Shown one piece after another: positions 75 to 21,114 of a stretch of 64,000 bases of DNA (position 1 is the first letter of the stretch; each line of letters begins with the position of its first letter). A model generated the notes under the pieces. The model saw only the letters and a program-made list of their open reading frames with translations, was not told the DNA's origin and did no database searches. This stretch comes from Asterochloris sp. CNOR1 (taxonomy: Eukaryota > Chlorophyta > Trebouxiophyceae > Trebouxiales > Trebouxiaceae), in the NCBI GenBank assembly GCA_963969365.1, contig OZ017751.1:1550001-1614000 (forward strand), read 5' to 3'. The position numbers and the translations under genes were made by a program.

Positions 75-75
75 A

Positions 76-81
76 CGTACG
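76..81. repeat. Putative 6-bp target-site duplication, left copy (CGTACG)
   Basis: CGTACG occurs at 76-81 and again at 21108-21113. Because the motif is its own reverse complement it can be read either as the last bases of the TIR or as a 6-bp target-site duplication. Polinton integrases usually leave 5-6 bp duplications. In that reading the element proper starts at ATAGGGTGG and ends at CCACCCTAT. Confidence 0.55.
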
Positions 82-383
82 ATAGGGTGGCCTGCGTTAT
101 TCCGGGCACCAGAATGCCCGAATTCATAATCCCTTCGGGCGGCTGGTGACTCTAATGAGGCCGGCTGACTCATCGGGCTGGTGCCCCGGCGGTGGGTCCA
201 CCGGTGTGGCAGCAGGCAGCTTTGGGCTGCCACGCGGCGCCGATGCCCCCAACCCCCGGCTGGTTTCGGGGCGGCATGGAAGGTGGTGGCTTGCTGGCTT
301 ATCAACTGGCACCCCCGGGGTTGGAAGCTGCTGCCTAGCGCACGCAGACTGTTTTGAGACTCCGCCCCCACCGGGGGCGCCCC

Positions 384-417
384 GGGCCCGCAGGGCCCCC
401 CCGGGCCCGCAGGGCCC
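384..417. repeat. Two tandem near-palindromes GGGCCCGCAGGGCCC inside the left TIR
   Basis: The 15-mer GGGCCCGCAGGGCCC occurs at 384-398 and 403-417, separated by four C/G bases. Each copy can fold on itself through GGGCCC/GGGCCC. The mirrored pair lies at 20772-20805 in the right TIR. A strong double hairpin near each terminus could be a replication or packaging signal; that role is inference. Confidence 0.7.
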
Positions 418-657
418 GTCCCCCCCAGCTGCTAGGGGGGTGGCACGGGCGGTGTCTGGACGGCTAGTGCACCACTAAATTGGCGTGGGCGAGGGTTTCC
501 CGTGGTCCAGGCGCTAGGGTGCTAGGGTTTCCCGGGGGGTGGGGGTTCGAGTAAAAACCGGTTTGACCTAAAGTCCCAGAAATCGGGGGCGATAGGGGGA
601 CACCCGGTGTCCCACAATTGGGGGCCCAAAGACGGACAGCTTGCTTACATCCTTTTA

Positions 658-975
658 CTATTCATCATCTTCAAGAAAAGGTATGTCGGGCTGAGTTGCC
701 TTCACGCGCTCGACGATGAAAGCTGGAACCTCGGTGCGATTGGGGGATCGCGGGGTGGGCTTCATCGTAAAGAGGTCGATGGTGTAGATGGACGTCCCGC
801 GAGAGCCAGCCGGCACATAGCACAGGAAACGCGTGCGTCCGTCATTGTCCTTGATGAAGGCCCTGTACTTCCCGTCCTTGCTGCCGCCGACCTCGGCATC
901 GTACAGAGATATCTTCGCGTTGAAGGCGATCATGTGCTGCTCCATCTTCGATACAGTGGGCGCCCAGTCGCTCAT
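658..975 (-). CDS. Small viral protein of unknown function (105 aa)
   Basis: The ATG at 975 opens a 105-codon frame that ends 17 bp inside the inner edge of the left TIR. The protein is mixed alpha/beta in character with a very acidic tail (ends FLEDDE) and no Cys, signal peptide or membrane segment. I recognise no family. It is transcribed divergently from the large replication gene across a 168-bp promoter region, which suggests an early, co-regulated gene. The short intact frame with normal composition supports it being real. Confidence 0.65.
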   Translation of the reverse strand: MSDWAPTVSKMEQHMIAFNAKISLYDAEVGGSKDGKYRAFIKDNDGRTRFLCYVPAGSRGTSIYTIDLFTMKPTPRSPNRTEVPAFIVERVKATQPDIPFLEDDE

Positions 976-1143
976 TGTGCTGTGTTGTGAAGTGAGAAAT
1001 TGTGTTGTGGCTGGTTGCTAGCGCTATAAGGCCTTTGCTGACAACTCTCGCTGACATTGGCTGACGTTTGCATTGTCAGCGGGACTTGTCAGGTATATAT
1101 ACATGCTCGCTTGATTGCCCGCATTATTTCCTGTGCTCACATC
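976..1143 (+). promoter_or_regulatory. Divergent promoter between the left-end gene and the replication gene
   Basis: A TATA box, TATATATA, lies at 1094-1101, about 43 bp before the ATG at 1144. Upstream are three copies of GCTGAC (1037-1042, 1050-1055, 1060-1065) and one inverted copy GTCAGC (1075-1080). The regular 10-13 bp spacing is about one helical turn, as expected for a protein-binding array. The leftward gene starts at 975, so the segment probably serves both directions. Confidence 0.6.
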
Positions 1144-4100
1144 ATGTCGCCAGTGAAATTCCGCGATGTGAGGTTCGGTACCGCTCTGACCAAGAAGCAG
1201 GTTGATGATTTCCTAGACGTGAACAAGCTGAGCGTGGCACAGGCTGCGAAGGATGTCAGCATCCTCGACGACTCCTACGTCTTCAAGCGGGTCCAGGGCA
1301 GAGCTCGCCTGGTTCATGTTGACAGGAGTTTCGTTGTGGGCGGCGTCGTGACCAGCAAGAAGCACGCAGTACAGAGGCTGAAGGAGAGCAAATACACCAA
1401 CGTTAAGCATGCTCGAAAGGAGGTCAAGATGCCGAAGGGCTACACGATGGATAAGGCCAAACGGGGAGGCAACGTCCGCCTGCGCAAGCAGACCAAGGAC
1501 GAGCTGGCTGCCGAGGAGCGGAAGGCTGCCAAGGGCAAGTTCGTGGAGGCTCGCCTCGATCTGTGGAACCGAGAGGACAAAGCCAAGAACACCCACTCGA
1601 ACAAACGCGACATCAGCGGCGTGGAGTGCTACCTGCAAAAGGAGTACGACATCATCGTACCGGCATCGCTGCTAAGGCACGGGACCATCACCGTCGACGA
1701 CGAGTCCGACTTCAACTCTTTGATCAACGGGCTTAGGACCCACCCAACGCTCGGCGACAACCAGGATGCGCTGTTCTGGATGGCCGACGGAGTAAACGAG
1801 GACTACATCCACGCCGTGACAGTCAGTGGCATGTCTGAGCACGCTCCGCGGCAGTCCTACAGCTACGGGGCGGAGAAGTTCGCAAGAGCCTTCGCCAACC
1901 GGGCTTCATGTAGCCGCTTCACGTCTACCTTCCTTGACCCTGCCGCCACCTCGTTCGAGCACATGTACTACGCTGAGACCTCACGCGAGCACCACGAGCT
2001 GTGTGGCTACCGCTACAAAAACGACGATGTACCTTTCGACAGGCTTAAGGACGGCCAGTGCGCCCTCAACGTGCTGCTGCTCAACGGGGAGTCCAGCCGC
2101 AAGGTCTACGAGGACCAGAAACACTCTCGCGTCAAGAGGAAGCGGCCAGAGGATGTCGTGCCGGAGGGGCCGGCATCACTTATGCAGCTGGCGGACTTTC
2201 AGCGGAGCCGACGCCAGAAGCTGCTGGTCCTCAACGCGGAGGAGAACGTGCCGGTCTACTGGTACCACCCCGCCATGGACGGCAATAAGGTCTGCGAGAA
2301 CGCAAAGACGCTGGCTCTCTTCGCCACCGACAACCACCTGACCCTCGCGGACAGCAACTCTGTCTTCCATGCCTTTCGCTGGGACGAGGAGTCCTTGACC
2401 TTCGTGAAGCGCAAGAAGGAAGAGGTCAAGGCGGAGAAGCAGTTCCCGTTCCCGCAGAGGGACAAGTCCCATCAGAAGCGCACGCTGTCAGAGCACTCCG
2501 CCCTCGCCCGCCCTTATTTTGCAGCAGCACCTCGGCCTCGGAACATCGGAACCGGCAGGGGGACGGCGAGGGAGCAGCTCGACGAGGTGATGAAGATCAT
2601 GCAGAAGATCGCGTACCATCCCGAGGAGAGGGACTTGTACAAGGACGAGCTGCAGAAGTCCCACCGCATCGTTGTGGATGCCTCCACCGTAAAGGAACAC
2701 ATCTGGGAGTTACTGCAAACCGGCATCCAGCCGGCCAGCTCAAGTCAGTCGCGATTTTCGCTGGTGCACGGTGACATCTTCTTCAACATAGAGGCTGGCA
2801 ACACCGCCTCTGACGAGGCAACAGCCCTCTACGGCGACGAACGCCAGTTTCGGCTGATGGAGGATGCCCGCCGCACCGTTGGCCTCAACATCATGCCTCG
2901 CCACATGATCTCAACGCTGGACCCTGACGTGCGGGCCACCATCAGGCAGCTGGCCCCCAGCGCCAACTGCCGCATCATCTGCCAGTACGAGGGTGCTCCT
3001 GAAAAGCAGCCCATCGTGTGGGAGGCGGACATCTGCAAGTCCCACCCCAGCATGCTGCGAGAGATCGGGGGTGTGATGGCCACCACCCCCCTGTCGAGGT
3101 TCAGATGGTTAGACGCCGCGGCGCCGCTGTCTGACCGCGCGTTCTACATCGTTGAGATGTACACGGATGTGCCCTCAGTTTACTTCACCAAGAAGATTGG
3201 CTTACACTACGGCCTCTGGTTGAAGAGGCAGGCACGGCGCGGCGATGATTGGGAGGCGGTGGCAGTGCTGGACATGACGGAGTTCTCTCCTCTCGACAAC
3301 TTAGACAACCTCCTTGATCACGTCTACACAAACGAGGAGCTGGACCCAGTGCTCCGCAAGTTCGTATTTAACGAGGCCATCGGTAAGATGGGCAAGGACT
3401 TCAACCGCTACTACAAAGCCCACCCCTACCGCTCTCAGGCGGAGGCTCATGCGGCTCGCGACCTGCTCCGGACTGGAAAGGTGGTGCCACGATCTGTGGA
3501 GACGGTACTAGACTACCGCGAGGGAGTCCCCGTAGTAGATGTCAATAAGTACTGGGAGGTGGCCCAGACGGACGAGGTGGAGCTGTCGAGCACCTTCATG
3601 GTTAACCGGCTGGCCATTGTCGACGGCCAGAACGCTCGCGTGCAAGAGATTGACGAGGCCGTGGCTGCTGTGCGCAGCGACAGCTATCCAGAGCTTGAGC
3701 TGTCATCATGCTTTGGTGCCGACGCTTGGAAAGCCTGCCACGCTCCGGGCCAGGAGGAGATGTTCGCGCAGGCTTTTGCCGAAGTTCAGCGGCGCTTTTC
3801 CCACCTCTTCGTTAAGCCGGGGATGTCGACACGTGAGGAGATGGGCCTCTTCAAGGTCCTCTTGCACCCAGTCACCGCCGTGAACAAAGTCCCCCGGACC
3901 ATGCGGGGAAAGGAGCTTGCGATGGAGGACAACACGACCTCATATGAGAAGCCCACGGCATGGGTGGCGGAGAAGGACAGCCTCGATCCCGAGGGGGGTC
4001 CTTTGATCGAGGTTCCCAATGGATACCTGGACACCCTGCCAATAGATGGGCCCGTACAATGGACAGACGTGAACATCGAAACAGAGGCTCGCTTCGACGA

Positions 4101-5691
4101 TGACCCAGTGGCATTCAACGCCGAGGTGACTGCTGCGATGGACAAGTGCCTGAAGGCATCTCGCGGCGTCCAGCTGCGAGGCCCTCCCGGCACAGGCAAG
4201 AGCTTCGCATGGGAGCAGTACTGCCCGCGCGAGACGACCGTGGTGTTTTGCCCCACGCATGAGCTACGCGAGCGACAGCAGGCCAAAGGGGCCAACGCGC
4301 TCACGATCAACTCGTACAGGAAGGTCAAGCACTTCGCAGACATACCCAAGGACGACGGGTTCGTCACGGTGGACATTGCCCCCAAGGACGACCTGCCAAC
4401 CGAGATCGACGGCGCCATCACGCATGTGGTGCTGGAGGAGTTTGGGCTCTGCACGGACTACCAATGGCGGTGCGCGCTTGCCCTCCGCATGCAGCACCCC
4501 AACGTCAACTTCATAATCGTGGGGGACCCCCGCCAGGAGCTGCCTTGCGAGGACAGGCTGACCGAGTTGTCGTGGGCCGAGAGGCTGGCCTACTACGACA
4601 GGGCGGCAGCCCGCGTCGCTGCCTGTAATCGCATCTCGCTCAAGCTAGACAAGCGCGTGTGCAAGAGGGATCGCGACCTGAAGCACGAGCTGAGCGAGGC
4701 CATCTGGGCGGCTCCCTCCCTCAAAGCTCTGCTTCGCGGCAAGCTCTGGAGGGCTCACGTGCCTGTTTTGACAAGCATCGACGAGCTGCCCTCCACGGAA
4801 GGCGGCAGCCACTGCACCTTCCTGCGTGCAACGCTGATGGGCATCTGCGCAGCGGTGCTCCGGCGCAATGGCAGAGACTATGGCTTCGAGGTTGGGGATA
4901 TAGTGCGGAACAGAGGCGGCAATAGGGGTAAGGGAGCGATGCCACAAAACAGCATGTGGAAGATCGTCTCGAAGGCGGAAGCCAACATCGAGTTCGAAGG
5001 TGTGCGTTACACTTTGGAGAAGCAAGGGCCTGCCCCAGCAATGGCAAAGAAGACCACGGAGAAGGCCTTCCTCAACCCGCAAGGCTATCGCATCGAGACA
5101 GAGGCGGCAATGTTGTCCACCTTCAGGCACACATACGCCACCACGACTTTCGGCCAGCAGGGAGGTTCCCAGCGCTGGAACTGCGTCTGGGACCTTGACA
5201 ACCCCTATCTTCAGAACGACAACCGCTGGCGGCACACCCTTTACAACGCGCTTGGGCGCTTGACGTCAGTGCGCCCAAGGAAGAATGGGGACGGTGTCAT
5301 CACGGGTGGCATGTTCATCTTCGCACCTGGAGCGGCAGCATCCGCAGTCACCGCGGAGGGCTACCGCCTGCTGGGGGTCCCCGACTGCGACAACAACGAG
5401 GTGTGGAAGAAGATACGCACGGCAAAGTGCAATGACGAGAAGCCCAAGGACGGTACGGCCAGGCCGTGGAAGCTCTGGAGCGAGAACGACTGGCTTGACA
5501 GCCAGACTGTCGTCAGACGATTGGAGAAGCAGCTTGGTACGTGTGCAGGGAGGGATTGCGGAGCCGATCTATACGGCACCGACTGGGAAATCGATCGCCC
5601 GGACTGCACGAGGCCTCATCTCAAATCGAATATGCAGTTGCTTTGCCGTGATTGCAACCGTGCCAAATCTGGTCCGGAACGGGCTATTTAG
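1144..5691 (+). CDS. Giant replication protein: polymerase-like region, SF1 helicase, C-terminal HNH domain (1515 aa)
   Basis: I take the ATG at 1144 because it follows a TATA box; an in-frame TTG at 1057 lies upstream of that box. The central part has a family-B-polymerase-like motif A (ADICKSHPS, residue D629) and a motif-B-like block (KFVFNEAIGKMGK, about residues 738-750), but no DTD motif C is visible, so polymerase activity is doubtful. Residues about 1013-1380 are a superfamily 1 helicase: Walker A GPPGTGKS (1013-1020), motif II VLEEFG (about 1097), GDPRQELP (about 1127), HTYATTTFGQQGGS and LYNALGRLTSVR near the end. The last 50 residues form an HNH-type zinc module: C1467-x4-C1472, H1492-x3-N1496, C1501-x2-C1504-N1505-x2-K1508. 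Likely role: genome replication and processing. The N-terminal 600 residues are unassigned. Confidence 0.9.
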   Translation: MSPVKFRDVRFGTALTKKQVDDFLDVNKLSVAQAAKDVSILDDSYVFKRVQGRARLVHVDRSFVVGGVVTSKKHAVQRLKESKYTNVKHARKEVKMPKGYTMDKAKRGGNVRLRKQTKDELAAEERKAAKGKFVEARLDLWNREDKAKNTHSNKRDISGVECYLQKEYDIIVPASLLRHGTITVDDESDFNSLINGLRTHPTLGDNQDALFWMADGVNEDYIHAVTVSGMSEHAPRQSYSYGAEKFARAFANRASCSRFTSTFLDPAATSFEHMYYAETSREHHELCGYRYKNDDVPFDRLKDGQCALNVLLLNGESSRKVYEDQKHSRVKRKRPEDVVPEGPASLMQLADFQRSRRQKLLVLNAEENVPVYWYHPAMDGNKVCENAKTLALFATDNHLTLADSNSVFHAFRWDEESLTFVKRKKEEVKAEKQFPFPQRDKSHQKRTLSEHSALARPYFAAAPRPRNIGTGRGTAREQLDEVMKIMQKIAYHPEERDLYKDELQKSHRIVVDASTVKEHIWELLQTGIQPASSSQSRFSLVHGDIFFNIEAGNTASDEATALYGDERQFRLMEDARRTVGLNIMPRHMISTLDPDVRATIRQLAPSANCRIICQYEGAPEKQPIVWEADICKSHPSMLREIGGVMATTPLSRFRWLDAAAPLSDRAFYIVEMYTDVPSVYFTKKIGLHYGLWLKRQARRGDDWEAVAVLDMTEFSPLDNLDNLLDHVYTNEELDPVLRKFVFNEAIGKMGKDFNRYYKAHPYRSQAEAHAARDLLRTGKVVPRSVETVLDYREGVPVVDVNKYWEVAQTDEVELSSTFMVNRLAIVDGQNARVQEIDEAVAAVRSDSYPELELSSCFGADAWKACHAPGQEEMFAQAFAEVQRRFSHLFVKPGMSTREEMGLFKVLLHPVTAVNKVPRTMRGKELAMEDNTTSYEKPTAWVAEKDSLDPEGGPLIEVPNGYLDTLPIDGPVQWTDVNIETEARFDDDPVAFNAEVTAAMDKCLKASRGVQLRGPPGTGKSFAWEQYCPRETTVVFCPTHELRERQQAKGANALTINSYRKVKHFADIPKDDGFVTVDIAPKDDLPTEIDGAITHVVLEEFGLCTDYQWRCALALRMQHPNVNFIIVGDPRQELPCEDRLTELSWAERLAYYDRAAARVAACNRISLKLDKRVCKRDRDLKHELSEAIWAAPSLKALLRGKLWRAHVPVLTSIDELPSTEGGSHCTFLRATLMGICAAVLRRNGRDYGFEVGDIVRNRGGNRGKGAMPQNSMWKIVSKAEANIEFEGVRYTLEKQGPAPAMAKKTTEKAFLNPQGYRIETEAAMLSTFRHTYATTTFGQQGGSQRWNCVWDLDNPYLQNDNRWRHTLYNALGRLTSVRPRKNGDGVITGGMFIFAPGAAASAVTAEGYRLLGVPDCDNNEVWKKIRTAKCNDEKPKDGTARPWKLWSENDWLDSQTVVRRLEKQLGTCAGRDCGADLYGTDWEIDRPDCTRPHLKSNMQLLCRDCNRAKSGPERAI

Positions 5692-5745
5692 GGGGTGCGT
5701 GGAGCCGCCACTCCGCACACATTTTACGTGTATCATTACAGCCAG

Positions 5746-6864: not shown

Positions 6865-6865
6865 C

Positions 6866-7297: not shown

Positions 7298-7366
7298 ACA
7301 TGCGCATTAATCAGCAGCCAATCAAATGTGGCCAGATTAAGGAACTAATACATAATTGGAGCAACC

Positions 7367-7792: not shown

Positions 7793-7842
7793 TCTGGTGA
7801 ATCATCTTATGGCCAGCTTGTAACATTTAATAGCTACCAACC

Positions 7843-8365: not shown

Positions 8366-8368
8366 CCA

Positions 8369-8704
8369 ATGAACGCAACAATCGATCTGCTTCCTTATCA
8401 CGCCAGCCTGTGGGAGATCGAGCATGTGCTTGGCCACGGGACCATCGAAAGGAAGCTTGTGAACGCTGACGTTATTCTCGCATCGCCGGAGTTTGACTCC
8501 GTTTACAAGAAGATCGCGAGCGTACACAAGCAGAACTTGCTCCTCGAAAAGATGCTGGACAACGACGAGGATCAGGACAGAGACGAGCCGAAACCGGTGG
8601 TGAGGAAGAGGGCAGCCCCCAAGAAGAAGGCACCTGCAAAACGCGTTGCGTTGTCAAAACTCATTGAAACCTCGCCAAAGACGGTCTCAGACCCCGCCAC
8701 CTAG
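8369..8704 (+). CDS. Small viral protein with lysine-rich tail (111 aa)
   Basis: The ATG at 8369 lies 3 bp after the previous stop. The first 65 residues form a regular helical region (SLWEIEHVLGHGTIERKL, SVYKKIASVHKQNLLLEKML), followed by an acidic DNDEDQDRDE run and a basic KRAAPKKKAPAKR tail that resembles a nuclear localisation or DNA-binding tail. Its end overlaps the convergent gene by 18 bp. No family is recognised. It closes the rightward early block. Confidence 0.65.
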   Translation: MNATIDLLPYHASLWEIEHVLGHGTIERKLVNADVILASPEFDSVYKKIASVHKQNLLLEKMLDNDEDQDRDEPKPVVRKRAAPKKKAPAKRVALSKLIETSPKTVSDPAT

Positions 8705-9028
8705 GTTCGATACGTGCTTCCCAAAGTCGTTCACTCTGTCCGCAATTTTATGCCCGGTGTCCAGGTACTTCTCCAGGGTATTTCCCCCTTTGAGTACTTT
8801 GTCGGCCACGCGAAGGGCCACGGCTCCTCCTGGGATACTCCTAGCAGCGTCTCCGATGATGCCACCACTGGATAAATCGGCTGCACGTGCGGCGTTGGCG
8901 ATTTGGTTGCCGATGTGCAATGCTTTTCGGGCGATCCCGCCACCCACGTGCAGGACCTTCTTCGAGATGCCCCCGATCTTGAGGGCCGTCTTACCGACCT
9001 TGGACGCTAGATTGTTGAAGAACCCCAT
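8687..9028 (-). CDS. Small Gly-rich basic amphipathic protein, probable virion component (113 aa)
   Basis: I start at ATG 9028 (MGFFNNLASKVGKTALK); a longer frame to 9064 needs TTG. The sequence alternates Gly, Ala and Lys with hydrophobic residues, giving amphipathic helices (KVLHVGGGIARKALHIGNQIANAARAADL). Small basic Gly/Ala-rich proteins next to the penton gene are common in adenovirus and Polinton-like virions, where they act as cement, core or membrane-active proteins; that role is inferred from position and composition. It is the most downstream gene of the leftward morphogenesis block. Confidence 0.65.
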   Translation of the reverse strand: MGFFNNLASKVGKTALKIGGISKKVLHVGGGIARKALHIGNQIANAARAADLSSGGIIGDAARSIPGGAVALRVADKVLKGGNTLEKYLDTGHKIADRVNDFGKHVSNLGGGV

Positions 9029-9065
9029 CGTTTGACATGCGCCATACTTTCTGATGTGAGTCAAA

Positions 9066-10247
9066 CTATGACCCGACCCGTTCGAACTTGAACAGCAGGC
9101 AAATGCTGTAGATCATCGAGCTCAGGTTCAAGGCGTACCCAAGAGGGTCGCGTATCGACAGGCCAAGCTGATTCACTTGCCTGTCAGTGACGTAGAGCCC
9201 CGGGTCCTCGCTGTGCGGGTTATACACGATCTTCTCGTTGTATTCGACGTCGATCGGGATGATCGCGAGAACATTCGGCGTGCTCAGGAACGTCTTAGAG
9301 CCTTGCGAGAAGTTCGATATGCTGCTGCCTGGGAGGCCGTTTATGGAGCCCCCCTGCGATAGACTCAAGATCAGCGCGTCAGGGCCTTGGATGACGGCGC
9401 TGTTAGGGGAGGTCAGCGAGCTTCCGAGAAGGTACGACTGCCCGCGAACGAACCCAAGGCATTTCGCGCACGAAACTTGAAGTCTTGCGGCCGAGAAGTC
9501 GAAGTAGATGTCCTGCTTACTGGACGTGTTGTTGAAGATCAGCGCATCAATCGGTGCCGTGGTGCCGTCGGAGTCCGTGACAGTGATGCCGGGGAGCTGA
9601 GAGTTCAGGCTCGCGATGACGGCGTCTAAGTTCGGTGCGCCAGCGGGGATGTTGTAGACGGTGTAGTACACGCAATACGGGTTCGTGTCCTGTGACGTCT
9701 GCACGGTGTACGTGCTGCCGGACTGCACCGCGGAGTACCCAGCCGATTGGAAGCCGAACCTGGCCTTCGTGTTGGGCTGCAGGATAGTCCAGTTAACGTT
9801 GAATGGAGAGCTCGAGCTAAACTGCCAGTTACCAAGGCCAGAGTACGAGATCGTGAGCGTGATCCCTAGCGTGGTGCCGTACGTCGAGTTGAACGAGTTG
9901 ATGATCTCCTGGTCGGTGACGTCTCCACTGGGCATCGTAACATTGACTGTACGCTGCTGAGCACTGCCAGGCAGCACGGTGATCTGGTAGCTATCGTTCT
10001 GGCCAGAGACGATGGTGGGGACGCTCTGGCTACGCACGACGAAGCCGCTGTTGTACCCGAGCTGGATCTGCGGGAATGTGTACCTCGAGTTGAACGAGAG
10101 CAGCTGCACGCGCATCACTTCGTCTTCACGACACTGCAACAGGCCTGGTGCCACGGACTGGGACAGGTCTGCAGCGGTTCCCTGATCGGCGTTGCTGGAC
10201 ACCGCGTAGAGCCTGACGCTTCTAAGCCCCGGAGTCGTCGTGGCCAT
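9066..10247 (-). CDS. Penton-like minor capsid protein (393 aa from ATG 10247)
   Basis: The protein is beta-rich, Ser/Thr/Asn-rich and nearly free of charged clusters, like a jelly-roll capsid protein. It starts MATTTPGLRSVRLYAVSS and ends with YVTDRQVNQLGLSIRDPLGYALNLSSMIYSICLLFKFE, a C-terminal pattern (LxLxDxxGxxLxL...SxxLxF) that I associate with penton proteins of Polinton-like viruses. An upstream ATG at 10334 would add 29 residues and enlarge the overlap with the preceding gene from 26 to 113 nt, so I prefer 10247. It is expected to form the five-fold vertices and could anchor the fibres encoded at 15633-19319. Confidence 0.75.
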   Translation of the reverse strand: MATTTPGLRSVRLYAVSSNADQGTAADLSQSVAPGLLQCREDEVMRVQLLSFNSRYTFPQIQLGYNSGFVVRSQSVPTIVSGQNDSYQITVLPGSAQQRTVNVTMPSGDVTDQEIINSFNSTYGTTLGITLTISYSGLGNWQFSSSSPFNVNWTILQPNTKARFGFQSAGYSAVQSGSTYTVQTSQDTNPYCVYYTVYNIPAGAPNLDAVIASLNSQLPGITVTDSDGTTAPIDALIFNNTSSKQDIYFDFSAARLQVSCAKCLGFVRGQSYLLGSSLTSPNSAVIQGPDALILSLSQGGSINGLPGSSISNFSQGSKTFLSTPNVLAIIPIDVEYNEKIVYNPHSEDPGLYVTDRQVNQLGLSIRDPLGYALNLSSMIYSICLLFKFERVGS

Positions 10248-11082
10248 AGTCGCCGTCGGGGGTGGGCGCTGGGTTGACATCCTGCCCATTTGCGGGGGTG
10301 CTGTCTGTTTGTTCAGGTTGCTCGTCCGGTGCATCCTCTAGTACAGGCTTGCCGGAAAATTGTTCTGCACGTCGTTTCAGCATGCGGGCCTCCGCTCGCT
10401 TCTCCGATCCGGTCAGCGGCTTGTTCTTCTGATCGAGCAAGCCGGCCAGGTAGAACCTGACGCTGTTCTCCTGCACGTACCCAGGCGCGTCCTTGGTCAA
10501 CGGGTCGTTCTGCACCTTCTTCAGTAGAGCTATGCCCTCAGGCGTCGTCAGCGGATCCTCTCCTTGGACCATATCAACCCGCACAGAATATTGCCGCGTG
10601 GTTTTCGAACGCCTGCTCTTGTGGGCCTCCGACCTGTACAGTGACTTGCGTGGGACTCCGAACACGTCTGCGTAAGACAGCATCGAGTCGAAACGAACGT
10701 CGGTGATAGTTGCCCCAGCCTCGTCTTCGATCGTCAACAGGAACCTTGGCTTGAACAGGTTGTGAGGCTTGCGGGGTACGCTCCTCAAGAACGTCAAGCA
10801 CCCATGCTGATGAAACACGTCTAGCAACCCCCGTCTGTACCAGGACAGCTGTGCATGAGTTTCATGAGAACAGATGAAAGGCGCCGCCTTGCGTGCCTCG
10901 ACGCACAGACGGGAGCAGTGCATCTCGCCCAGAGCAGCAGCGGTCTCGTCCAACAGCTCCTCGTAGGCCGCGCGGGGATCAGAAACAGTAAAGGGAATGA
11001 TGTATGCACCCAACCTTCGACGCTTGGCTATCGCCCGGCACTCGTCGTCGTTGCACACGTAGAAGGGTGGACTGAGCATCAT
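10222..11082 (-). CDS. Viral protein of unknown function between ATPase and penton genes (286 aa)
   Basis: The ATG at 11082 overlaps the ATPase stop by 4 bp (ATGA arrangement), implying tight coupling. The N-terminal 200 residues look globular with several Cys and His residues (YVCNDDECRAIAKRRR, CSRLCVEA, FICSHETH), possibly metal-binding. The C-terminal 80 residues are disordered and Pro/Asp-rich. I do not recognise the fold. Its place between ATPase and penton suggests a virion assembly role. Confidence 0.75.
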   Translation of the reverse strand: MMLSPPFYVCNDDECRAIAKRRRLGAYIIPFTVSDPRAAYEELLDETAAALGEMHCSRLCVEARKAAPFICSHETHAQLSWYRRGLLDVFHQHGCLTFLRSVPRKPHNLFKPRFLLTIEDEAGATITDVRFDSMLSYADVFGVPRKSLYRSEAHKSRRSKTTRQYSVRVDMVQGEDPLTTPEGIALLKKVQNDPLTKDAPGYVQENSVRFYLAGLLDQKNKPLTGSEKRAEARMLKRRAEQFSGKPVLEDAPDEQPEQTDSTPANGQDVNPAPTPDGDYGHDDSGA

Positions 11083-11951
11083 TCGGGCTCTATATAGGTG
11101 CCGAACGATTTACGATAGCGCTGGTTTTTCGGAGCAGACCAGTCTATGAAGAGAAAGCTATGAGGGGCTTCGGTGGCGTAGTCGTAGAGAGACATGAACT
11201 GCTCCTCGGTGAGGTGCCCAGAAACCTCCTCATACATGTCCTCGCAAATGACCTTTTTCGAAGCGTATTTGAAAATACTGAAGCAAGAACAATTGTTTCG
11301 CAGCACGCGGGGGATTTGGCGTAACCCCTGTGTCGACACATACAGAAAACACATGAGATGCCTGTTGCGGATGGCGAGGTAATTGATGGCACTCTTTCCG
11401 GTGGCCTTGAAGGCCACACCTACGAGGTCGTCGAGTAAAAGATGATTGACGGGAGGTGTAGTGTACCGTGGTGGATCTGAAAGCTTCTGAACGGTGCTTT
11501 CGAGAAACAGAGCCTCCGCATAGCCTATGCGTTCAGGATGTTTCACGAAGCGTTTCCATGTTGCAACCATCTCTTGCCATTCCAACGCCTTTGCCTTAGT
11601 CTCTTTGATGTCGGCTATGATCGCTTCCACGAGACTCTCGCTGTATTGCGCGTGAACGTCATCGGGGTCTGCACCAAGGCCATGAAGCACAGGGTTGGCA
11701 TCGTATGTTGGACTGATTATGATGACTCTTTGCGCCAGGTTCTCCCCTGTCTTGGTGTCTCTGATACCAGCCTCCTGGTACATCTTGATGAGCTTCGCTA
11801 TGGCGAACGTCTTGCCAGAGTTGCGGCCAGCTATCCATAGCGACAGCGCATAGCACTTTGGAAGCTCGGGGTTGTTCGGGACGGGGTAGACCAGCTTTTT
11901 GTGCTTCAGCGGGTCGTCGTTCATCGTCTTCGAGGGAGTGGACTTCACCAT
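11079..11951 (-). CDS. Genome-packaging ATPase, A32/FtsK-HerA type
   Basis: The 290-residue protein has Walker A AGRNSGKT (residues 41-48) after a hydrophobic strand, and Walker B VNHLLLDDL (D174-D175). A polar strand FLYVSTQGLRQIPRVLRNN follows, matching the sensor/arginine-finger area of viral packaging ATPases. Length fits the family. It should drive DNA into preformed capsids. A second in-frame Met at residue 10 is an alternative start. It sits in the same leftward operon-like block as the capsid genes, the classical PLV/virophage arrangement. Confidence 0.92.
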   Translation of the reverse strand: MVKSTPSKTMNDDPLKHKKLVYPVPNNPELPKCYALSLWIAGRNSGKTFAIAKLIKMYQEAGIRDTKTGENLAQRVIIISPTYDANPVLHGLGADPDDVHAQYSESLVEAIIADIKETKAKALEWQEMVATWKRFVKHPERIGYAEALFLESTVQKLSDPPRYTTPPVNHLLLDDLVGVAFKATGKSAINYLAIRNRHLMCFLYVSTQGLRQIPRVLRNNCSCFSIFKYASKKVICEDMYEEVSGHLTEEQFMSLYDYATEAPHSFLFIDWSAPKNQRYRKSFGTYIEPE

Positions 11952-11956
11952 CTACC

Positions 11957-12490
11957 TTACCCGAACGGAAACATTACCCGGTGCAAGGCTTGTAGACGTG
12001 CCTCACTGGGATCTTCCGTGTCGCTTTCAGAAGACGATGACTCGCTCGGTGTCGGGTAATTCCGCTTCTTTGCCTTACGCTTCGGGAGTGGTGATGGACT
12101 CTCATCCGATTCGCTCTCAGACGGGGAAGGAGCGCGCTTCCGTTTCTTAGCCAAAGCCGGCAGAGCCGGCGTTGGGCGCGAAGCGCACACTGGCTGAGGC
12201 GCCTTCGCTTTCTTTTGTGGTGCCGCCTCTGTTTGTGCCAATGCAGCCTTCAAACGCTCTATCTCTGCGTCCCGCTCGGTATCGACGTGACGTTTGTATT
12301 GTTCTTTCAGCTCCTGCTGCAAGCGTGTGCGTTCTCCCTTGGCCTTGATCACTGTGAGCGCCTTCTCACGATTACGCTTCAACACTTCTAGCTGAGCAGG
12401 CGTGCACTTTCTCTTGGGCTTCGGATTCGTCTGGATAGTGTCTGTTCCTGAGTCCGACACAGTTTCGTTGGGATCGGCGACGCTGGACAT
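11957..12490 (-). CDS. Ser-rich basic protein with coiled coil (177 aa)
   Basis: A central segment (residues 33-88) is a strongly charged coiled coil (LEVLKRNREKALTVIKAK, ERDAEIERLKAALAQTE). It is flanked by basic clusters (KKRKRAPSPSESES, PKRKAKKRN) that resemble nuclear signals, and a tail of Ser/Glu repeats that would be good casein-kinase-2 sites. There is no enzyme motif. Only 5 bp separate it from the ATPase start. A DNA-condensing or scaffold protein is plausible by composition. Confidence 0.7.
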   Translation of the reverse strand: MSSVADPNETVSDSGTDTIQTNPKPKRKCTPAQLEVLKRNREKALTVIKAKGERTRLQQELKEQYKRHVDTERDAEIERLKAALAQTEAAPQKKAKAPQPVCASRPTPALPALAKKRKRAPSPSESESDESPSPLPKRKAKKRNYPTPSESSSSESDTEDPSEARLQALHRVMFPFG

Positions 12491-12521
12491 TTACCAGAAA
12501 ACCAGAGAAAAAACAGGGCCA

Positions 12522-12788: not shown

Positions 12789-12805
12789 CTACAGAACGAC
12801 AACAT

Positions 12806-14191
12806 TTAAACGTCGAGCTCGAACTGACACGCGCTGCCAATTTTGACGACCGAGGACGATTTGCAGAAGATCAGAGGGATGCGAACGTTGCCGTTGTCGG
12901 AGGTGGTGATGCTGCCCTTGTTGGCGGTAGCGCCTGTGGTAGTGAACGTCACTTCGGTGCTGGAGTGGGCACTGTTCAAACCGCTCTGCACCCGGTCCGC
13001 GGGGTCGGTGTGGAGCGCGAACGAGACGCCGCACATCCATGCGGTCCGTACGAACGCATCGTTCGAGAGCAGCATCCGGGGGTTGGCGATGCTGTGTGCA
13101 TCCTGGCTGGTTCCGAGGACGTCGGACATGAAGGAATAGGTGAAGTTGTTATCAACGGCCCCGATCTGGGGGTATAACTGAGAATTAACTGTGAAGCCCC
13201 AGCTGGCGACGTCCGCGGCGAAATTCGAAAAGGTATCCACGTTTCCTGTGCTGTGTTTCGCTAAGCTCCAGCTCTGGCCGTTAAACGCATCGGGTGCTAC
13301 ACCATCCGCGAAGACGCCGCTGGACCCCGTGGGGGCGCCGTTTATGAACGTCCCGAGCACCAGATCTAGAGAGTTGAAGGACGCTTGAAAGCGGGTGACC
13401 TGGGTAGGGCCTTGTCCCGCAGGGATCAAGGAACCGTTGAAGGAAGTCCACTTATTGAATAGTCTGGAAATCACGTTGCCTGCGTTCAGATAGCGCTGCT
13501 GGCTTACGTAATATTCCGTCGGAAGCTGCCATACGCAAATTGTCGCGTAAAGCCCTGAAAGTGTGAAGCTCTGTGATCCGCTCAGAGTATTCGTGTTATC
13601 GAAGCCCAACACGTTGGGAGACGCGAGGGTCATTTCGACGCGCAGGGGGAGCAGCTCTGTGTCGTAGATCTGCTCGGTGCTGGACAGGAAGTCGAGGAAG
13701 TGTGACCAGACGATCGGCTGGCTCGATACCATGCCACCCACCACGTTTGCGTTGGCGCTCTGTGTCTGGTTATATCCGGCATCCGACGTGGGGATGGGGC
13801 TCGCGTTGCCAAGGATGCGCCTGTCTGGGAGCTTGTCTCCAAGCATGTGTTTCGCGAGAAGCGAATAGAGGTGCGCGTGATGTTGTGGACCTTGGGAGAC
13901 CATCTGCCCATTGGAAGTACACTGAATCCGGCTGATCAGTGTCTCCGCCTCACGGGGGAGGCAGACCGCGGGTGTCTTGCCGGTCGCTGCGGGCTGGCCG
14001 CTGGTGCTTGCGTATGAGTACACCTTCAAGGTCGAAAGGTCGCAGGTACAGTGAGGGGGGAGGTCGAAAGTTACGACGTCGCCGGGGTTGTAGGTGGTGC
14101 TGTTCAGCGGGATGATCTTCCGAATATTCTGATCGTGGCTGCACCTCTGGATGAAGTTGAGGAGACTCTTTGGCATGTACTGCCCGGACAT
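12806..14191 (-). CDS. Major capsid protein, double jelly-roll type
   Basis: The 461-residue protein begins MSGQYMPKSLLNFIQRC and soon has YNPGDVVTFDLPP, a block characteristic of PLV major capsid proteins. The rest is beta-rich with few charges and several typical loop segments (LPLRVEMTLASPNVLGF, FTLSGLYATICVWQLP). Size is as expected for a double jelly-roll hexon. It should form the icosahedral shell together with the penton-like protein at 9066. A T-run (TTTTTTTCTGCACCC) lies about 18-30 bp before the ATG and resembles those before other late genes here. Confidence 0.85.
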   Translation of the reverse strand: MSGQYMPKSLLNFIQRCSHDQNIRKIIPLNSTTYNPGDVVTFDLPPHCTCDLSTLKVYSYASTSGQPAATGKTPAVCLPREAETLISRIQCTSNGQMVSQGPQHHAHLYSLLAKHMLGDKLPDRRILGNASPIPTSDAGYNQTQSANANVVGGMVSSQPIVWSHFLDFLSSTEQIYDTELLPLRVEMTLASPNVLGFDNTNTLSGSQSFTLSGLYATICVWQLPTEYYVSQQRYLNAGNVISRLFNKWTSFNGSLIPAGQGPTQVTRFQASFNSLDLVLGTFINGAPTGSSGVFADGVAPDAFNGQSWSLAKHSTGNVDTFSNFAADVASWGFTVNSQLYPQIGAVDNNFTYSFMSDVLGTSQDAHSIANPRMLLSNDAFVRTAWMCGVSFALHTDPADRVQSGLNSAHSSTEVTFTTTGATANKGSITTSDNGNVRIPLIFCKSSSVVKIGSACQFELDV

Positions 14192-14239
14192 CGTGCTTGC
14201 AAGGGTGCAGAAAAAAATGCGTTCAGTGGCCCATCGCCC

Positions 14240-14263
14240 CCTTCGGTGGGGCCCTACCGAAGG
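14240..14263 (-). terminator. Stop-codon hairpin (CTTCGGTAGGGCC type), copy 2
   Basis: This 24-nt sequence is an almost perfect palindrome, with one G-T mismatch. The stop codon of the leftward gene (14254-14256) lies at its centre, in the same register as the copy at 8059-8087: both genes end ...CTTCGGTAG. It separates that gene from the capsid gene. I infer a transcript 3'-end signal. Confidence 0.6.
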
Positions 14264-15606
14264 CGGGCTGCCCTCATTGCGTTCTCGTCCCGCAATATCT
14301 GAGCCTCGTTTCGACGCGGCCTCCGACCCACCCTTCGCATCTTTCGGACCCCTCCTTGCGGGACATCATTAGCCCCATTCGGGGCGGCATTACCGGAACG
14401 GTAATCGTCTCTTTTTCTCTTCGCTCCAGGGTTGTTGTCGGCAAAGTTGAACCCACCCATGGGAACGGCCTCATGCGCATCGAACCTGTACTGTCTAGCG
14501 TAGGCGAAAGGGTACCTACCGGTAAGCTCTTCGAAGGGGTGGGGCCGCGTGCCGACCCCCCTAGGTGCTGCTGCAGGCACGTTGGCGAACTCCGGCCTGC
14601 CGACGTCTCCAACCATACCGACGTGGTCGTTGTCGGACTTGCGCTTCGACGCAGGCTTTCGAGACATATCCACCGCCATCCGCTCTGGCCTCGGGGGAAG
14701 GTGCCGGTAGCGGTCTCCATTATTGAAATGAAGGGGGTCGGTGTTCGTTCCCACGCTGTGTCCAAGCATACTGGTTTGGGTTCCAACGCTATCTCCAAGC
14801 ATACCGCTAGTTTGCGTGCCAAACGTGTTGGTGCCAGGGCCGATGGGATCGCTGCCTGTGGTGGTAACCGATGGGCCGATAGGATCGCTGCCCGTCGCGG
14901 TAGTCGATGGGCCCATGATGGGGTCGGTGCCAGCCTCGGCGGTACGCAGATAGGTTTGCGTCCTTTTCGTGCGCCTGTTGCTCTGGCCCCCGTTGGTAGG
15001 GCGCCCCGGAGGAGCGAATTCCACCGGGTCTGTGCCTGTGCTGGTCGTGGAGCCAACGATGGGGTCGGTGCCTGCATCCGCCACTGAAGGCCGCGAAACG
15101 CTCTCGGGCTTGGGGCCCTGTTCCGGATCGGTTTGAGTGCCACCCTCGGCCTTCGTCGTGGCTGTGACCGGCGCTGCAGGCATGTTGGCGTACAGGTCGA
15201 GATCGCGAAGATCCTGCGACGCGCCTGCCGGAAGCATATCGGTTTGCGTGCCGATCACTGCCGTCTTGGCGATCGCCTCGGCGCTGGGTCCAGGAACGGG
15301 TTGGGCGCCCTGTTGCTGGAGGGCGCGCACGATGTTGTCGACGTTGCTGGACAGCTGGTGGATGGAGTACCCCGCCTGGGCGTCGAACGATGGTAGGGGG
15401 TGTGGGACGGAGACGTGCACGCTGGCCGACCCCCCACCTCCTCCGAAGCTGGGCATCGTGTAAGAAGGCCGGCTGAAGCGGTTGCGTACGCCGGCTTTGG
15501 CTTGCCCGATGTTGACTTTGACGTTGGTGGAGACGGCCGTCGACTTGCCCTTGGCCTTAGCTTTCGCACCGGTGTTGCTTTTCTTCGCAGCCTTTCGCTT
15601 GGGCAT
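14254..15606 (-). CDS. Disordered basic protein with an array of TQT motifs (450 aa)
   Basis: The N-terminus is Lys/Ala-rich (MPKRKAAKKSNTGAKAKAK), followed by a Gly-rich linker. Residues 118-291 contain a degenerate repeat: GTQTD (119-123), GTQTD (156-160), GTDPI, GTDPV, RTQTY (215-219), GTDPI, GSDPI twice, GTQTS (263-267), GTQTS (275-279), GTNTD (286-290). The C-terminal 140 residues are basic (SKRKSDN, GAKRKRDD, RKMRRVGRRPRRN). TQT with flanking Asp/Gly is the anchor of dynein light chain LC8-binding motifs, and tandem copies bind LC8 strongly; LC8 binding here is inference. It is divergent from the fibre genes and upstream of the capsid gene, so a virion or core protein is likely. Confidence 0.8.
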   Translation of the reverse strand: MPKRKAAKKSNTGAKAKAKGKSTAVSTNVKVNIGQAKAGVRNRFSRPSYTMPSFGGGGGSASVHVSVPHPLPSFDAQAGYSIHQLSSNVDNIVRALQQQGAQPVPGPSAEAIAKTAVIGTQTDMLPAGASQDLRDLDLYANMPAAPVTATTKAEGGTQTDPEQGPKPESVSRPSVADAGTDPIVGSTTSTGTDPVEFAPPGRPTNGGQSNRRTKRTQTYLRTAEAGTDPIMGPSTTATGSDPIGPSVTTTGSDPIGPGTNTFGTQTSGMLGDSVGTQTSMLGHSVGTNTDPLHFNNGDRYRHLPPRPERMAVDMSRKPASKRKSDNDHVGMVGDVGRPEFANVPAAAPRGVGTRPHPFEELTGRYPFAYARQYRFDAHEAVPMGGFNFADNNPGAKRKRDDYRSGNAAPNGANDVPQGGVRKMRRVGRRPRRNEAQILRDENAMRAARLR

Positions 15607-15632
15607 TTCTTTCTGTACCCAAGAGAAAAGCT
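15607..15632. promoter_or_regulatory. 26-bp divergent late promoter between TQT protein and fibre 1
   Basis: Only 26 bp separate the two start codons. Leftward it reads AGCTTTTCTCTTGGGTAC and rightward TTCTTTCTGTACCCAAG before each ATG. Similar T-rich elements precede the leftward genes at 12490 and 14191. This suggests a very compact late promoter with leaders of almost no length. Confidence 0.45.
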
Positions 15633-17495: not shown

Positions 17496-17522
17496 AGCTT
17501 TTTAACTATTGTCAAGTAATGC

Positions 17523-19319
17523 ATGTCAGGCGTGACACCGATATACAGTGGCTTGACACCGGAGACGGTCCTGACGACAGATCCTCTCACGCAACAGCTG
17601 AATCTCTTGGCAGCTAATGTCCAAAACCTCTCGAACTACACGTTCGCTTACATAAACGGTAACAACTCGCAGCAGACCGCCTCGAACAACATCAACTCGT
17701 TACAGGGCCAGATCACAGTAAACGGTCAGGCCATAGCCAACCTCGGCAGCAGCACGCAGGCCACGATAACCCAGCTCGCGTCGAACACAGCCGCCTCGTT
17801 TGCGATGTCGAATTCGGTGCAGTCGGCCATCGGTGCTAATGTTGGTTCGCTTCAGACGGGCCTGTCGGCACTGTCATCGCAAACCGCGGGCATGGCTGCC
17901 AACGTATCGACTCTGCAAAGCGGCTTGTCGTCGCTGGCGTCCCAGACAGCCACTAGCTTCAACATGTCGAACGCGGCCCAAGCCTCCCTTGGAGCCAACC
18001 TCTACGCGCTGCAAGGCAACGTGTCGAGCCTGGCTATCCAGGTGAACAGCTCGCAGACCGGCGCCCTCGCCAGCAACCTCTCTGCAACGCAAAACGGTCT
18101 TGCAAACCTGTCGCAAACTCAGGCTGCGTTTGCCAACAGCACGTCCGCATCCCTTTCCACATTGAGCGTCGGCCAACAGACCCAGCAAAACGCGATCGTC
18201 ACCTTGCAGGCCAACGTCGCGCAAGCACAAGGCAACATTGCCGGGCTGAGTACATCCCTTGCCGCGTTCCAGAGCCAGGTCGGTAATACATTCGCCGCAT
18301 CTAATGCGATTCAGCAATCCCTGCTCTCAAACGTCACGCAAGCACAGGCAGGCCTCAACATTGCGGGAGCCAATCTCTCGCTCTTTCAGACACAGGTCGC
18401 CAACAGCTTCAACGTGAGCAATGCGTTCCAGTCCACGTTGGCTGCATCGTTGGCCTCCAATGTCACGTCTCTGGGAAGTAGCATTGCGAACTTGGCAAAC
18501 AGTACCTCGGCAACTTTTGGAGTGAGCAACGCCATTCAATCTACGTTGGCAACATCCCTCGCATCCAACGTCAACATTCTGGCAAGCAGCATTGCGAACT
18601 TGGCAAACAGTACCTCGGCCACTTTCACAGTGAGCAATGCGTACCAATCTACGTTGGCGGCATACTTGGCCTCGAATGTCACGTCTCTGGGAAGCAACAT
18701 TGCTACATTGTCCAACACAACCTCGGCAACTTTCACAGTGAGCAATGCGTTTCAGGCCACGTTGGCATCTTCCCTTGCCTCCAATGTCAACACGCTAACG
18801 ACCAGCCTTGCCAGCTTGTCCAACACTACCTCGGCCACTTTCACAGTGAGCAATGCGTTCCAATCTACGTTGGCGGCATCCCTGGCCTCTAATGTGACGT
18901 CCCTTGCCAGCAGCATTGCGAACTTGGCCAACAGCACCTCGGCGTCCTTCGTTGTCAGCAATGCGTATCAAACGGCATTGGCCGCATCCCTCGCATCCAA
19001 CGTGATGACTATCGGCAGCAGCATTACGTCCCTCTCCAGCAGCACCTCCTCATCGTTTCAAACAGCCAACGTACAGCTATCGGCGCACGCAAGTAACATC
19101 GCGGTCTTGCAATCAAATGTCAATGCCCTCTTTGCGAATGTTTCGACGCTGCAATCGAACGTGGGCGCGATCCAAGGCAACATCTCTCAGCTAGCTTCGA
19201 ACTCCGCACAGCAGGCTGCGATGATAAATCTCGTGTGGCGCCAGACGCAGTGGCTGTACTCGTACAAAGCCAACAGCGTCAATCTGTTGGCTGGCACCCC
19301 AGCCTATCCGACGAGCTGA
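17523..19319 (+). CDS. Fibre protein 2, long repetitive trimeric-coiled-coil shaft (598 aa)
   Basis: The ATG at 17523 opens a protein dominated by Ala, Ser, Asn, Leu and Gln with regular hydrophobic spacing (LQSGLSSLASQTATSF, LASNVTSLGSSIANL), typical of a parallel trimeric coiled-coil or beta-helical fibre. Six tandem 36-residue repeats occupy about residues 298-513. The C-terminus (VWRQTQWLYSYKANSVNLL) breaks the pattern and may be an attachment or cap segment. It lies 27 bp after fibre 1 on the same strand, so the two probably build one spike or act alternatively. Confidence 0.8.
   Translation: MSGVTPIYSGLTPETVLTTDPLTQQLNLLAANVQNLSNYTFAYINGNNSQQTASNNINSLQGQITVNGQAIANLGSSTQATITQLASNTAASFAMSNSVQSAIGANVGSLQTGLSALSSQTAGMAANVSTLQSGLSSLASQTATSFNMSNAAQASLGANLYALQGNVSSLAIQVNSSQTGALASNLSATQNGLANLSQTQAAFANSTSASLSTLSVGQQTQQNAIVTLQANVAQAQGNIAGLSTSLAAFQSQVGNTFAASNAIQQSLLSNVTQAQAGLNIAGANLSLFQTQVANSFNVSNAFQSTLAASLASNVTSLGSSIANLANSTSATFGVSNAIQSTLATSLASNVNILASSIANLANSTSATFTVSNAYQSTLAAYLASNVTSLGSNIATLSNTTSATFTVSNAFQATLASSLASNVNTLTTSLASLSNTTSATFTVSNAFQSTLAASLASNVTSLASSIANLANSTSASFVVSNAYQTALAASLASNVMTIGSSITSLSSSTSSSFQTANVQLSAHASNIAVLQSNVNALFANVSTLQSNVGAIQGNISQLASNSAQQAAMINLVWRQTQWLYSYKANSVNLLAGTPAYPTS
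18414..19061 (+). repeat. Six tandem 108-bp (36-residue) repeats inside fibre gene 2
   Basis: Each unit starts VSNAxQ(S/A)TLA and ends with NxTSATF or a close variant (SSTSSSF in the last). Copies differ by scattered substitutions at DNA level, so the array is ancient enough to have diverged or is under diversifying pressure. Unequal crossing-over in such an array would change shaft length in 36-residue steps. Confidence 0.85.
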
Positions 19320-19527
19320 GTTTCGGGGCCAGCTCCCGCTTCAGCTTGCCGTAAGCCCACTGTACAAGATCGGCGAGAATCAGTTCGTAGTTGGGAGACG
19401 CCAAAATACATTCCGCAATCTCGTTAGGTGCCGGCAGCGGGTTCACTCCGTGATTCAACACGAGGGCGTCGATCACGATCTCGAGCTGATGAAAGGGACA
19501 AAGGGTTTTCAGCGCTGAGTATTCCAT
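19279..19527 (-). CDS. Small viral protein of unknown function (82 aa)
   Basis: The ATG at 19527 opens a helical, Leu/Pro/Glu-rich protein (LEIVIDALVLNHG, IAECILASPNYELILADLVQWAYGKLKREL). Its last 13 codons overlap the end of fibre gene 2 in the opposite direction. No family is recognised. The hydrophobic periodicity looks like a real folded domain. Confidence 0.55.
   Translation of the reverse strand: MEYSALKTLCPFHQLEIVIDALVLNHGVNPLPAPNEIAECILASPNYELILADLVQWAYGKLKRELAPKLSSSDRLGCQPTD
19313..19335 (+). terminator. Weak hairpin at the end of fibre gene 2
   Basis: GAGCTG (19313-19318) can pair with CAGCTC (19330-19335) around an 11-nt loop, and the TGA stop overlaps the stem. It is a short stem with no U-run and may be chance. 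Confidence 0.25.
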
Positions 19528-19612
19528 AATTTTCTAAGATGTCACCATCGTAGCATTTTCTTACAGTTCATATAACGTCACAATCTGAATGTACTTTCAT
19601 ATCAGCTTCCAC

Positions 19613-20325
19613 TCAGGTTTGGGTGCGTGTACGCTTGGCCCTGGGAGCAGTGGCCTCGTTGGTCGAGGGCTCTGCAGCAGGCTGGGCGGTGGGGGTCTGT
19701 ATAGGAGGCTGGCTGCCAGAACTGGCAGCATGACGGTGAAGCTCCAACTCATCAAGAATCGGCCTCAGTGAATGTGCATACCCCTTTTGCTTCACCGCTT
19801 TGTCAAGCCACTTCCTGGCTTTGTCAGCGGCGTCCTTCCTGGGTTGGATGACAAGCTCTTCGTACTCATACACGGCCTTGGGGATCTCCATCGTGGGAAG
19901 CACCAGGGGAGAGTTGGTGACAACCATGTTGTTGTGGTCCACATACACCTCTATCTTAACCTGCATTTCACAAACTGAATGTTGGTCACAGTCCACACAC
20001 AGTCCACACCCCAAAAGGGGCGGGCGCAATAGGCAGGTTTACTCACATGCTTGGGCTCCAGGTAGAAATTCCCCTTCTCCTTGTGGAACTTCTCATCCAG
20101 GTCCGCCCAACAGCCAGGTGTTGCCTCGGCACCAGGTTCACCATCCTCACCCTCAGCATCTATGCCCCTCCAGTGGCGGTACCAGGACTTGGTGGTGTTG
20201 TGCAGACGGTGGCACTTGAAGCAGACGTAGGCATCGTGGGGCTGGGTCTCGGTTGGCTTGTTGACGTGACCGGTGCCCAGCAAAGGGCTGTTGAGCTTCT
20301 GGTCCTGCCTCAGTGTGAACGCCAT
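19613..20325 (-). CDS. Spliced viral gene of unknown function (2 exons, 208 aa)
   Basis: Exon 1 is 20325-20047 (ATG MAFTLRQDQK..., 93 codons) and exon 2 is 19960-19613 (115 codons plus stop). The 86-nt gap starts GTGAGT and ends with a polypyrimidine-poor ...GAAATGCAG, and joining keeps the frame. Without splicing, exon 1 would run into a stop in a Cys/Trp-rich tail. Exon 1 has a Cys pair, VCFKCHRLHNTTKSWYRHW, which may be part of a zinc-binding site. Exon 2 is beta-rich then charged-helical, with a Pro/Thr/Ala tail ending KRTRTQT. It is the only element gene with a clear intron and lies next to the right TIR, so recent capture from a host is possible. Confidence 0.65.
19961..20046 (-). other. 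86-nt spliceosomal-type intron in the right-end gene
   Basis: Read on the minus strand: exon ...CCCAAGCAT, donor GTGAGT at 20046-20041, acceptor TGCAG ending at 19961, exon GTTAAGATAGAG. Donor and acceptor are of the same type as in the host genes downstream. Length is not a multiple of three, so retention would frameshift the product. Confidence 0.65.
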
Positions 20326-20547
20326 CTGCACCACAGTATATGACGTTTCTAGATTGTAATGTACCGCAATGAAGCGATATGTGAGACTCTCAACTGTATC
20401 AAAAACACGGGCAGGAAAGCGGACAAAAGCTGCAAGCGGAGCCAGGGGTTCACCTTGGGGGTGCTGCCCAATTGTGAGGAGAAGTGAGAGACTGGGGTAC
20501 TTAAAGGTACATTTCCGTTGATTTTATTGCCGCGGCAGCTGCCAGGC
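20326..20547. other. Non-coding stretch between right-end gene and right TIR
   Basis: This 222-bp region is more AT-rich than the TIR. A TATACTG sequence lies about 15 bp before the ATG at 20325. The bases GTGGTGCAG directly before that ATG also look like a splice acceptor, so a non-coding 5' exon further up cannot be excluded. No gene seen. Confidence 0.5.
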
Positions 20548-21114
20548 AGCTGTCCGTCTTTGGGCCCCCAATTGTGGGACACCGGGTGTCCCCCTATCGC
20601 CCCCGATTTCTGGGACTTTAGGTCAAACCGGTTTTTACTCGAACCCCCACCCCCCGGGAAACCCTAGCACCCTAGCGCCTGGACCACGGGAAACCCTCGC
20701 CCACGCCAATTTAGTGGTGCACTAGCCGTCCAGACACCGCCCGTGCCACCCCCCTAGCAGCTGGGGGGGACGGGCCCTGCGGGCCCGGGGGGGCCCTGCG
20801 GGCCCGGGGCGCCCCCGGTGGGGGCGGAGTCTCAAAACAGTCTGCGTGCGCTAGGCAGCAGCTTCCAACCCCGGGGGTGCCAGTTGATAAGCCAGCAAGC
20901 CACCACCTTCCATGCCGCCCCGAAACCAGCCGGGGGTTGGGGGCATCGGCGCCGCGTGGCAGCCCAAAGCTGCCTGCTGCCACACCGGTGGACCCACCGC
21001 CGGGGCACCAGCCCGATGAGTCAGCCGGCCTCATTAGAGTCACCAGCCGCCCGAAGGGATTATGAATTCGGGCATTCTGGTGCCCGGAATAACGCAGGCC
21101 ACCCTATCGTACGT
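20548..21114 (-). repeat. Right terminal inverted repeat (567 bp)
   Basis: This is the mirror of 75-641. It ends ...CCACCCTATCGTACGT at 21114, after which similarity to the left flank stops abruptly. The inner edge is AGCTGTCCGTC at 20548. The open frame of 110 codons inside each arm is Pro/Gly/Ala-rich and probably a by-product of base composition. Confidence 0.95.
21108..21113. repeat. Putative 6-bp target-site duplication, right copy (CGTACG)
   Basis: Partner of 76-81. The palindromic sequence means the exact element end is uncertain by up to six bases. Confidence 0.55.

Follow-up and report, generated by a model that had tools for sequence, protein, structure and literature searches.

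An apparently complete and probably young Polinton-like provirus in a green-algal chromosome

The window analysed here, a stretch of 64,000 nucleotides (C6:1550001-1614000), carries an element bounded by two inverted arms of 567 nt that are 100% complementary and enclose 19,906 nt (Table 1). Both terminal inverted repeats (TIRs) had been described as present and identical in an earlier note on this DNA, and they agree at 100% over the entire 567 nt. A search with the TIR over the host genome (56.4 Mb in 21 contigs, as in all genome searches below) recovered only the two arms of this element, repeat counts being lower bounds. When lengths of 1-14 bases were tried, the two flanks agreed at lengths 1, 2 and 6 only. 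The six-base agreement, TTTGTT, is likely the target-site duplication of the element; a fixed 6-mer would agree by chance at about 1/4,096, and more often in T-rich DNA. The earlier note had instead proposed CGTACG. This palindrome is found at both ends, but it is ruled out as the duplication because it lies within the TIR tips (5'-ACGTACGATAGGG), as part of the inverted repeat, and because TTTGTT abuts both TIRs. Polinton-like viruses (PLVs) possess terminal inverted repeats and sometimes a target-site duplication of 5-6 bp, according to PMC12220804, and TIRs and a likely 6-bp duplication are both present here. A pattern built from the TIR tip occurs in two IMG/VR contigs; these have no common protein by tblastn at E 0.01 and were taken as chance matches and not as relatives.

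Table 1. Features of the element and its right flank (positions in the window)
Feature	Position	Strand	Evidence or remark
Likely target-site duplication TTTGTT, left copy	69..74	.	adjoins left TIR
Left TIR	75..641	+	567 bp, tip 5'-ACGTACGATAGGG
Small frame, 105 aa	658..975	-	no Pfam match
Tlr1-like replication protein, 1,515 aa	1144..5691	+	OTU-like Cys/His, palm motifs A-C, SF1 helicase, C-terminal HNH
DGQC, candidate OTU catalytic Cys	2050..2061	+	Cys invariant in 4/4 aligned proteins
DNHLTL, candidate OTU His	2329..2346	+	His invariant in 4/4 aligned proteins
Palm motif A candidate DICKSHPSML	3028..3057	+	by eye
Palm motif B candidate KFVFNEAIGKMG	3358..3393	+	by eye
Palm motif C candidate AQTDE	3562..3576	+	by eye; first Asp of DTD replaced
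Helicase Walker A GPPGTGKS	4180..4203	+	motif
HNH endonuclease module	5542..5607	+	Pfam HNH and PHROG endonuclease VII
Retroviral-type integrase, 372 aa	5746..6864	+	D77-D138-D177
Frame, 143 aa	6866..7297	+	open frame
F-box-like protein, 141 aa	7367..7792	+	Pfam F-box E 0.0033, under curated cut-off
Frame from GTG, up to 113 aa	8024..8365	+	open frame
Frame, 111 aa	8369..8704	+	open frame
Conserved 113-aa protein	8687..9028	-	C10 element relative, blastp E 5e-12
Candidate penton (minor capsid) protein, 422 aa	9066..10334	-	position and size; C10 relative E 3e-6
286-aa protein	10222..11082	-	weak C10 relative, E 0.003
FtsK/A32-type packaging ATPase	11079..11951	-	Walker A GRNSGKT, Walker B LLLDD
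Charged 177-aa protein	11957..12490	-	similar C10 protein at same position
Frame, 88 aa	12522..12788	-	open frame
Major capsid protein, 461 aa, double-jelly-roll-like	12806..14191	-	structural matches of predicted fold
450-aa protein	14254..15606	-	507-aa C10 protein at same position, blastp E 0.029
Candidate fibre protein 1, 620 aa	15633..17495	+	inferred; 30-residue piece 60% identical to C10 protein
Candidate fibre protein 2, 598 aa	17523..19319	+	inferred; tandem repeats 18414-19000
Frame, 82 aa	19279..19527	-	open frame
Frame from TTG, up to 138 aa	19613..20029	-	overlaps frame 19951..20334
Frame from GTG, up to 127 aa	19951..20334	-	open frame
Right TIR	20548..21114	-	567 bp
Likely target-site duplication TTTGTT, right copy	21115..21120	.	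adjoins right TIR
Candidate host exon	21130..21229	+	directly after acceptor TCACTGCAG; ends CAG/GTGAGG
Candidate next host exon	21407..21613	+	one frame open through join

The genes are arranged as a replication protein, an integrase and small frames on the plus strand, a structural block on the minus strand, a pair of plus-strand fibre candidates and further small frames. All ten large genes are without internal stop (third-position GC 0.59-0.79), in agreement with the earlier statement that every large gene is open, whereas the penton and fibre names given along with that statement are kept here as candidate labels; the 20 listed frames are open as well (20/20), but by construction of the frame list. 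None of these 20 frames reaches the curated Pfam cut-off, indicating a strongly diverged lineage that is not easily filed. A relative of the element lies on contig C10 (C10:150053-169252, GC 0.474) and matches eight window genes with blastp E values from 8e-64 to 0.003, the 286-aa protein and the 30-residue fibre piece being the weakest of the eight. Genome searches with the capsid, ATPase and integrase each hit two loci, this one and the C10 element (32%, 38% and 37% identity, respectively), and neither they nor the TIR search revealed a second copy of the element itself. Pattern scans of IMG/VR returned 1 + 73 stretches for the capsid, 110 for the replication protein, 600 for the integrase and 72 for the ATPase, with no confirmed relative among them.

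Tlr1-like helicases are described in section 10 of PMC11071308 as starting with a variable N-terminal part and a middle domain, followed by an OTU-like protease, a palm, a superfamily-1 helicase and, at the C-terminus, GIY-YIG or HNH. The palm is there assigned to the protein-primed polymerase type, with a motif C that lacks the first Asp, and the proteins are predicted to remain polymerases (PMC11071308 section 10). The order found in the window protein (DGQC, NH, DICKSHPS, KFVFNEAIGKMG, AQTDE, GPPGTGKS, HNH) fits this published layout. The corresponding motif C of the C10 protein is QSNQ, where the second Asp is missing as well. Profile matches are weak throughout yet point the same way. In the helicase part, AAA_30 is matched at E 0.0014 by the window protein and at 3.2e-5 by the best of the four members, and a Dda-like helicase at 3.4e-5; the C-terminus matches endonuclease VII of PHROG (1.8e-4), and the Pfam HNH family is matched by three of the four members (best E 0.013), with the window protein under the cut-off. 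By sequence, the replication protein has no significant match in PDB. The model of the palm region failed (pLDDT 35.2, no structural match at E<=0.001), and the polymerase and OTU labels are therefore based on motifs recognised by eye.

The usual catalytic triad of retroviral-type integrases is DDE, with Glu as the third residue. D77, D138 and D177 of the element are conserved in the C10 protein, so that the triad is D-D-D in both. The tail of the protein resembles the SH3-like tail of retroviral-type integrases. When the two integrases are combined in a profile, Ty3 heads the PDB matches at E 0.02, a value that is not significant by itself. The window integrase on its own returns three chance-level rows from PDB by sequence, and Pfam gives no rve match.

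The predicted capsid fold has double-jelly-roll-like structural matches, although the model is weak (mean pLDDT 45.4) and the Foldseek TM-scores are below 0.5 among the 50 matches listed; by sequence the protein has no match in PDB or in phage records. A search of the host genome with giant-virus capsid families gave no match, but the control genomes were silent as well, which deprives this negative of weight. Walker A and B of the packaging ATPase are conserved in the C10 relative, and we take the protein to fit the FtsK/A32 motif pattern; it has no match in Pfam or, by sequence, in PDB, and its PHROG terminase match is at E 0.032. By its position and size the 422-aa protein is a candidate penton protein. 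The second fibre candidate contains tandem repeats of 108 bp (36 residues) in about 5.4 copies. The 450-aa gene and the first fibre gene start divergently only 26 bp apart (15606-15633), as does the corresponding C10 pair at 23 bp, and this short gap is a candidate for a compact two-way promoter.

The host is well supported as a green alga, because its nuclear RbcS matches Rubisco small subunits over the full length, with 1gk8, which we take to be the small subunit of the green alga Chlamydomonas, among the top rows. Directly to the right of the element the DNA reads TTTGTTTCACTGCAG, which by eye is a good splice acceptor, and one of three frames stays open throughout the predicted join of the two candidate exons (21130-21229 + 21407-21613). 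Because of this acceptor, the candidate exons and the open frame, the element probably lies within a candidate intron, in its pyrimidine tract, which the duplication would restore. The earlier note had placed the element within about 300 bp of an exon; the nearest candidate exon instead begins at 21130, only 15 bp beyond the right TIR. Neither the exon peptide nor five host frames have a Pfam match at E 1.

The host DNA examined is strongly depleted in CpG and has an excess of TG/CA, so that the CpG profile marks the element sharply. Observed/expected CpG is 0.98 in the unique part of the element versus 0.35 and 0.39 in the flanks, and TG/CA is 1.67-1.76 in the host and 1.16-1.19 in the element. 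Among 73 one-kilobase windows, the 21 inside the element (the first of which holds 74 host bases) range from 0.58 to 1.15 and the 51 outside from 0.19 to 0.53 without overlap, one window across the right end being left out. Eight host transposon pieces have values of 0.29-0.41. Such a sharp change of composition at both ends would also be produced by the misjoining of a viral contig to host DNA during assembly, but this is extremely improbable: the TTTGTT duplication abuts both ends, each tested flank (586 and 1,001 bases) matches only its own place in the genome, and the relatives likewise lie in contigs of 0.7-2.8 Mb.

The data would agree with a recent arrival of the element in a host that methylates its DNA. 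With no difference among the 567 paired bases, the rule of three puts divergence below about 0.5% unless gene conversion has acted, which could likewise leave identical TIRs. The TIRs alone have a CpG value of 0.69 and the C10 element one of 0.63 without the host-like TG/CA excess, and hence CpG may differ by virus lineage. The element might instead be old, its integrity maintained by selection or by conversion of the repeats, since conversion could also yield identical TIRs, the main genes of the C10 relative are open too, and another contig in the protein database encodes a protein identical to the C10 capsid protein. We regard this as unlikely, as CpG in the unique part is not shifted toward the host value and no decayed siblings, which the earlier note had named as a possible refutation, were found in genome searches with the TIR, capsid, ATPase or integrase. 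Identical TIRs and undepleted CpG in the unique part support the view of the earlier note that the element is probably young.

The TIRs, the 6-bp duplication, the capsid matches, the ATPase motifs, the integrase, the replication protein and the host RbcS all agree with the earlier proposal that a complete Polinton-like provirus is integrated in the chromosome of a green alga, and we consider it very probable that such a provirus, recently integrated, is what lies at this locus. The most plausible assignment is to the PLVs, as a new, intact and probably young member of the integrase-bearing Tlr1-like sort. The capsid tree covered 10 proteins, none of them a named sequence from PLVs, Polintons or virophages. 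TIRs, a 6-bp duplication and a retroviral-type integrase would also fit a bona fide Polinton/Maverick; that identity is nevertheless improbable, as Pfam detects no stand-alone protein-primed PolB or Ulp1-type protease in the 20 frames (of which it recognised little) and the replication gene resembles the Tlr1-like fusion of palm, helicase and HNH. For comparison with the PLV described here, M. neglectum, which we take to be the green alga Monoraphidium neglectum, has a Polinton-like element that encodes a protein-primed DNA polymerase, unlike the palm-like region and helicase joined in one protein in the window. That element is similar in being algal and in having a retroviral-type integrase (PMC4642659, in part). 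Tlr1 of Tetrahymena, a PLV variant with an RVE integrase, shares with our element an integrase of retroviral type, capsid genes, an ATPase and a large multidomain replication protein, in which an SF1 helicase and a nuclease at the C-terminus accompany a palm, represented here by candidate motifs (PMC11071308, PMC4642659). Compared by description, it differs in that Tlr1 has GIY-YIG (PMC12721341, in part), whereas here the nuclease is HNH and the host a green alga. Tetraselmis TvV-S1 and TsV-N1 and the PgVV-group PLVs, relatives of which are integrated in chlorophyte genomes, are likewise small capsid-bearing algal elements (PMC10120064, in part), and TvV-S1, again by description, also has a Tlr1-like helicase (PMC11071308 section 10). 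However, the retroviral-type integrase present here is mostly absent in PLVs, according to the pertinent part of PMC11071308. The element was not recognised in the accessible parts of the open-access literature; surveys of chlorophyte PLVs (PMC10120064, PMC12220804) may include it in their tables.

In the proposed life cycle, the integrase would have inserted the virus as linear DNA at TTTGTT through a staggered cut of 6 bp, a reaction whose end product is seen in the window. Replication would fall to the element's own Tlr1-like polymerase-helicase, perhaps with protein priming at the TIR tips, and the ATPase would package the DNA in an icosahedral capsid of the double-jelly-roll type that carries penton and fibres. 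With its exact ends, legible duplication and open genes, and a CpG-depleted host background that sharply marks foreign DNA, the element makes this algal strain convenient for studying whether such proviruses remain mobile or still produce particles. The strain also suits the study of a replication protein with an altered polymerase motif, and the question whether insertion alters the host gene that apparently contains the element.

The C10 element differs in arrangement. In the window, block A (replication, integrase) is followed by block B (small genes, structural block, fibres), while C10 has B followed by A with relative strands alike; the two gene orders are thus circular permutations of each other. 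The permutation may have come from a circular or concatemeric stage, or from one block move, and is treated as no more than a lead. Eight matching genes in one circular order with different opening points suggest a possible, though doubtful, reading in which the element represents an undescribed green-algal PLV lineage that combines a retroviral-type integrase (Asp for Glu), a Tlr1-like replicase and a circular or concatemeric stage. Inverted repeats of 94% identity surround the C10 element (147644-147861 / 171622-171839) as candidates for its ends, and a search for shorter ends gave scores inside the shuffle range. This C10 repeat has 17 further matches in the genome (19 in all): 12 of these make up six plus/minus pairs with spacings of about 6-13 kb, two are separated by 48 kb and three are single. 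Eight inspected pieces of the family contain no match of the capsid, ATPase, integrase or replication frames, and one weak match, to C10 frame 170231-170491. The C10 PLV may hence be nested in, or carried by, a transposon of this repeat family. The repeat copies on C6 and C14 look near-palindromic.
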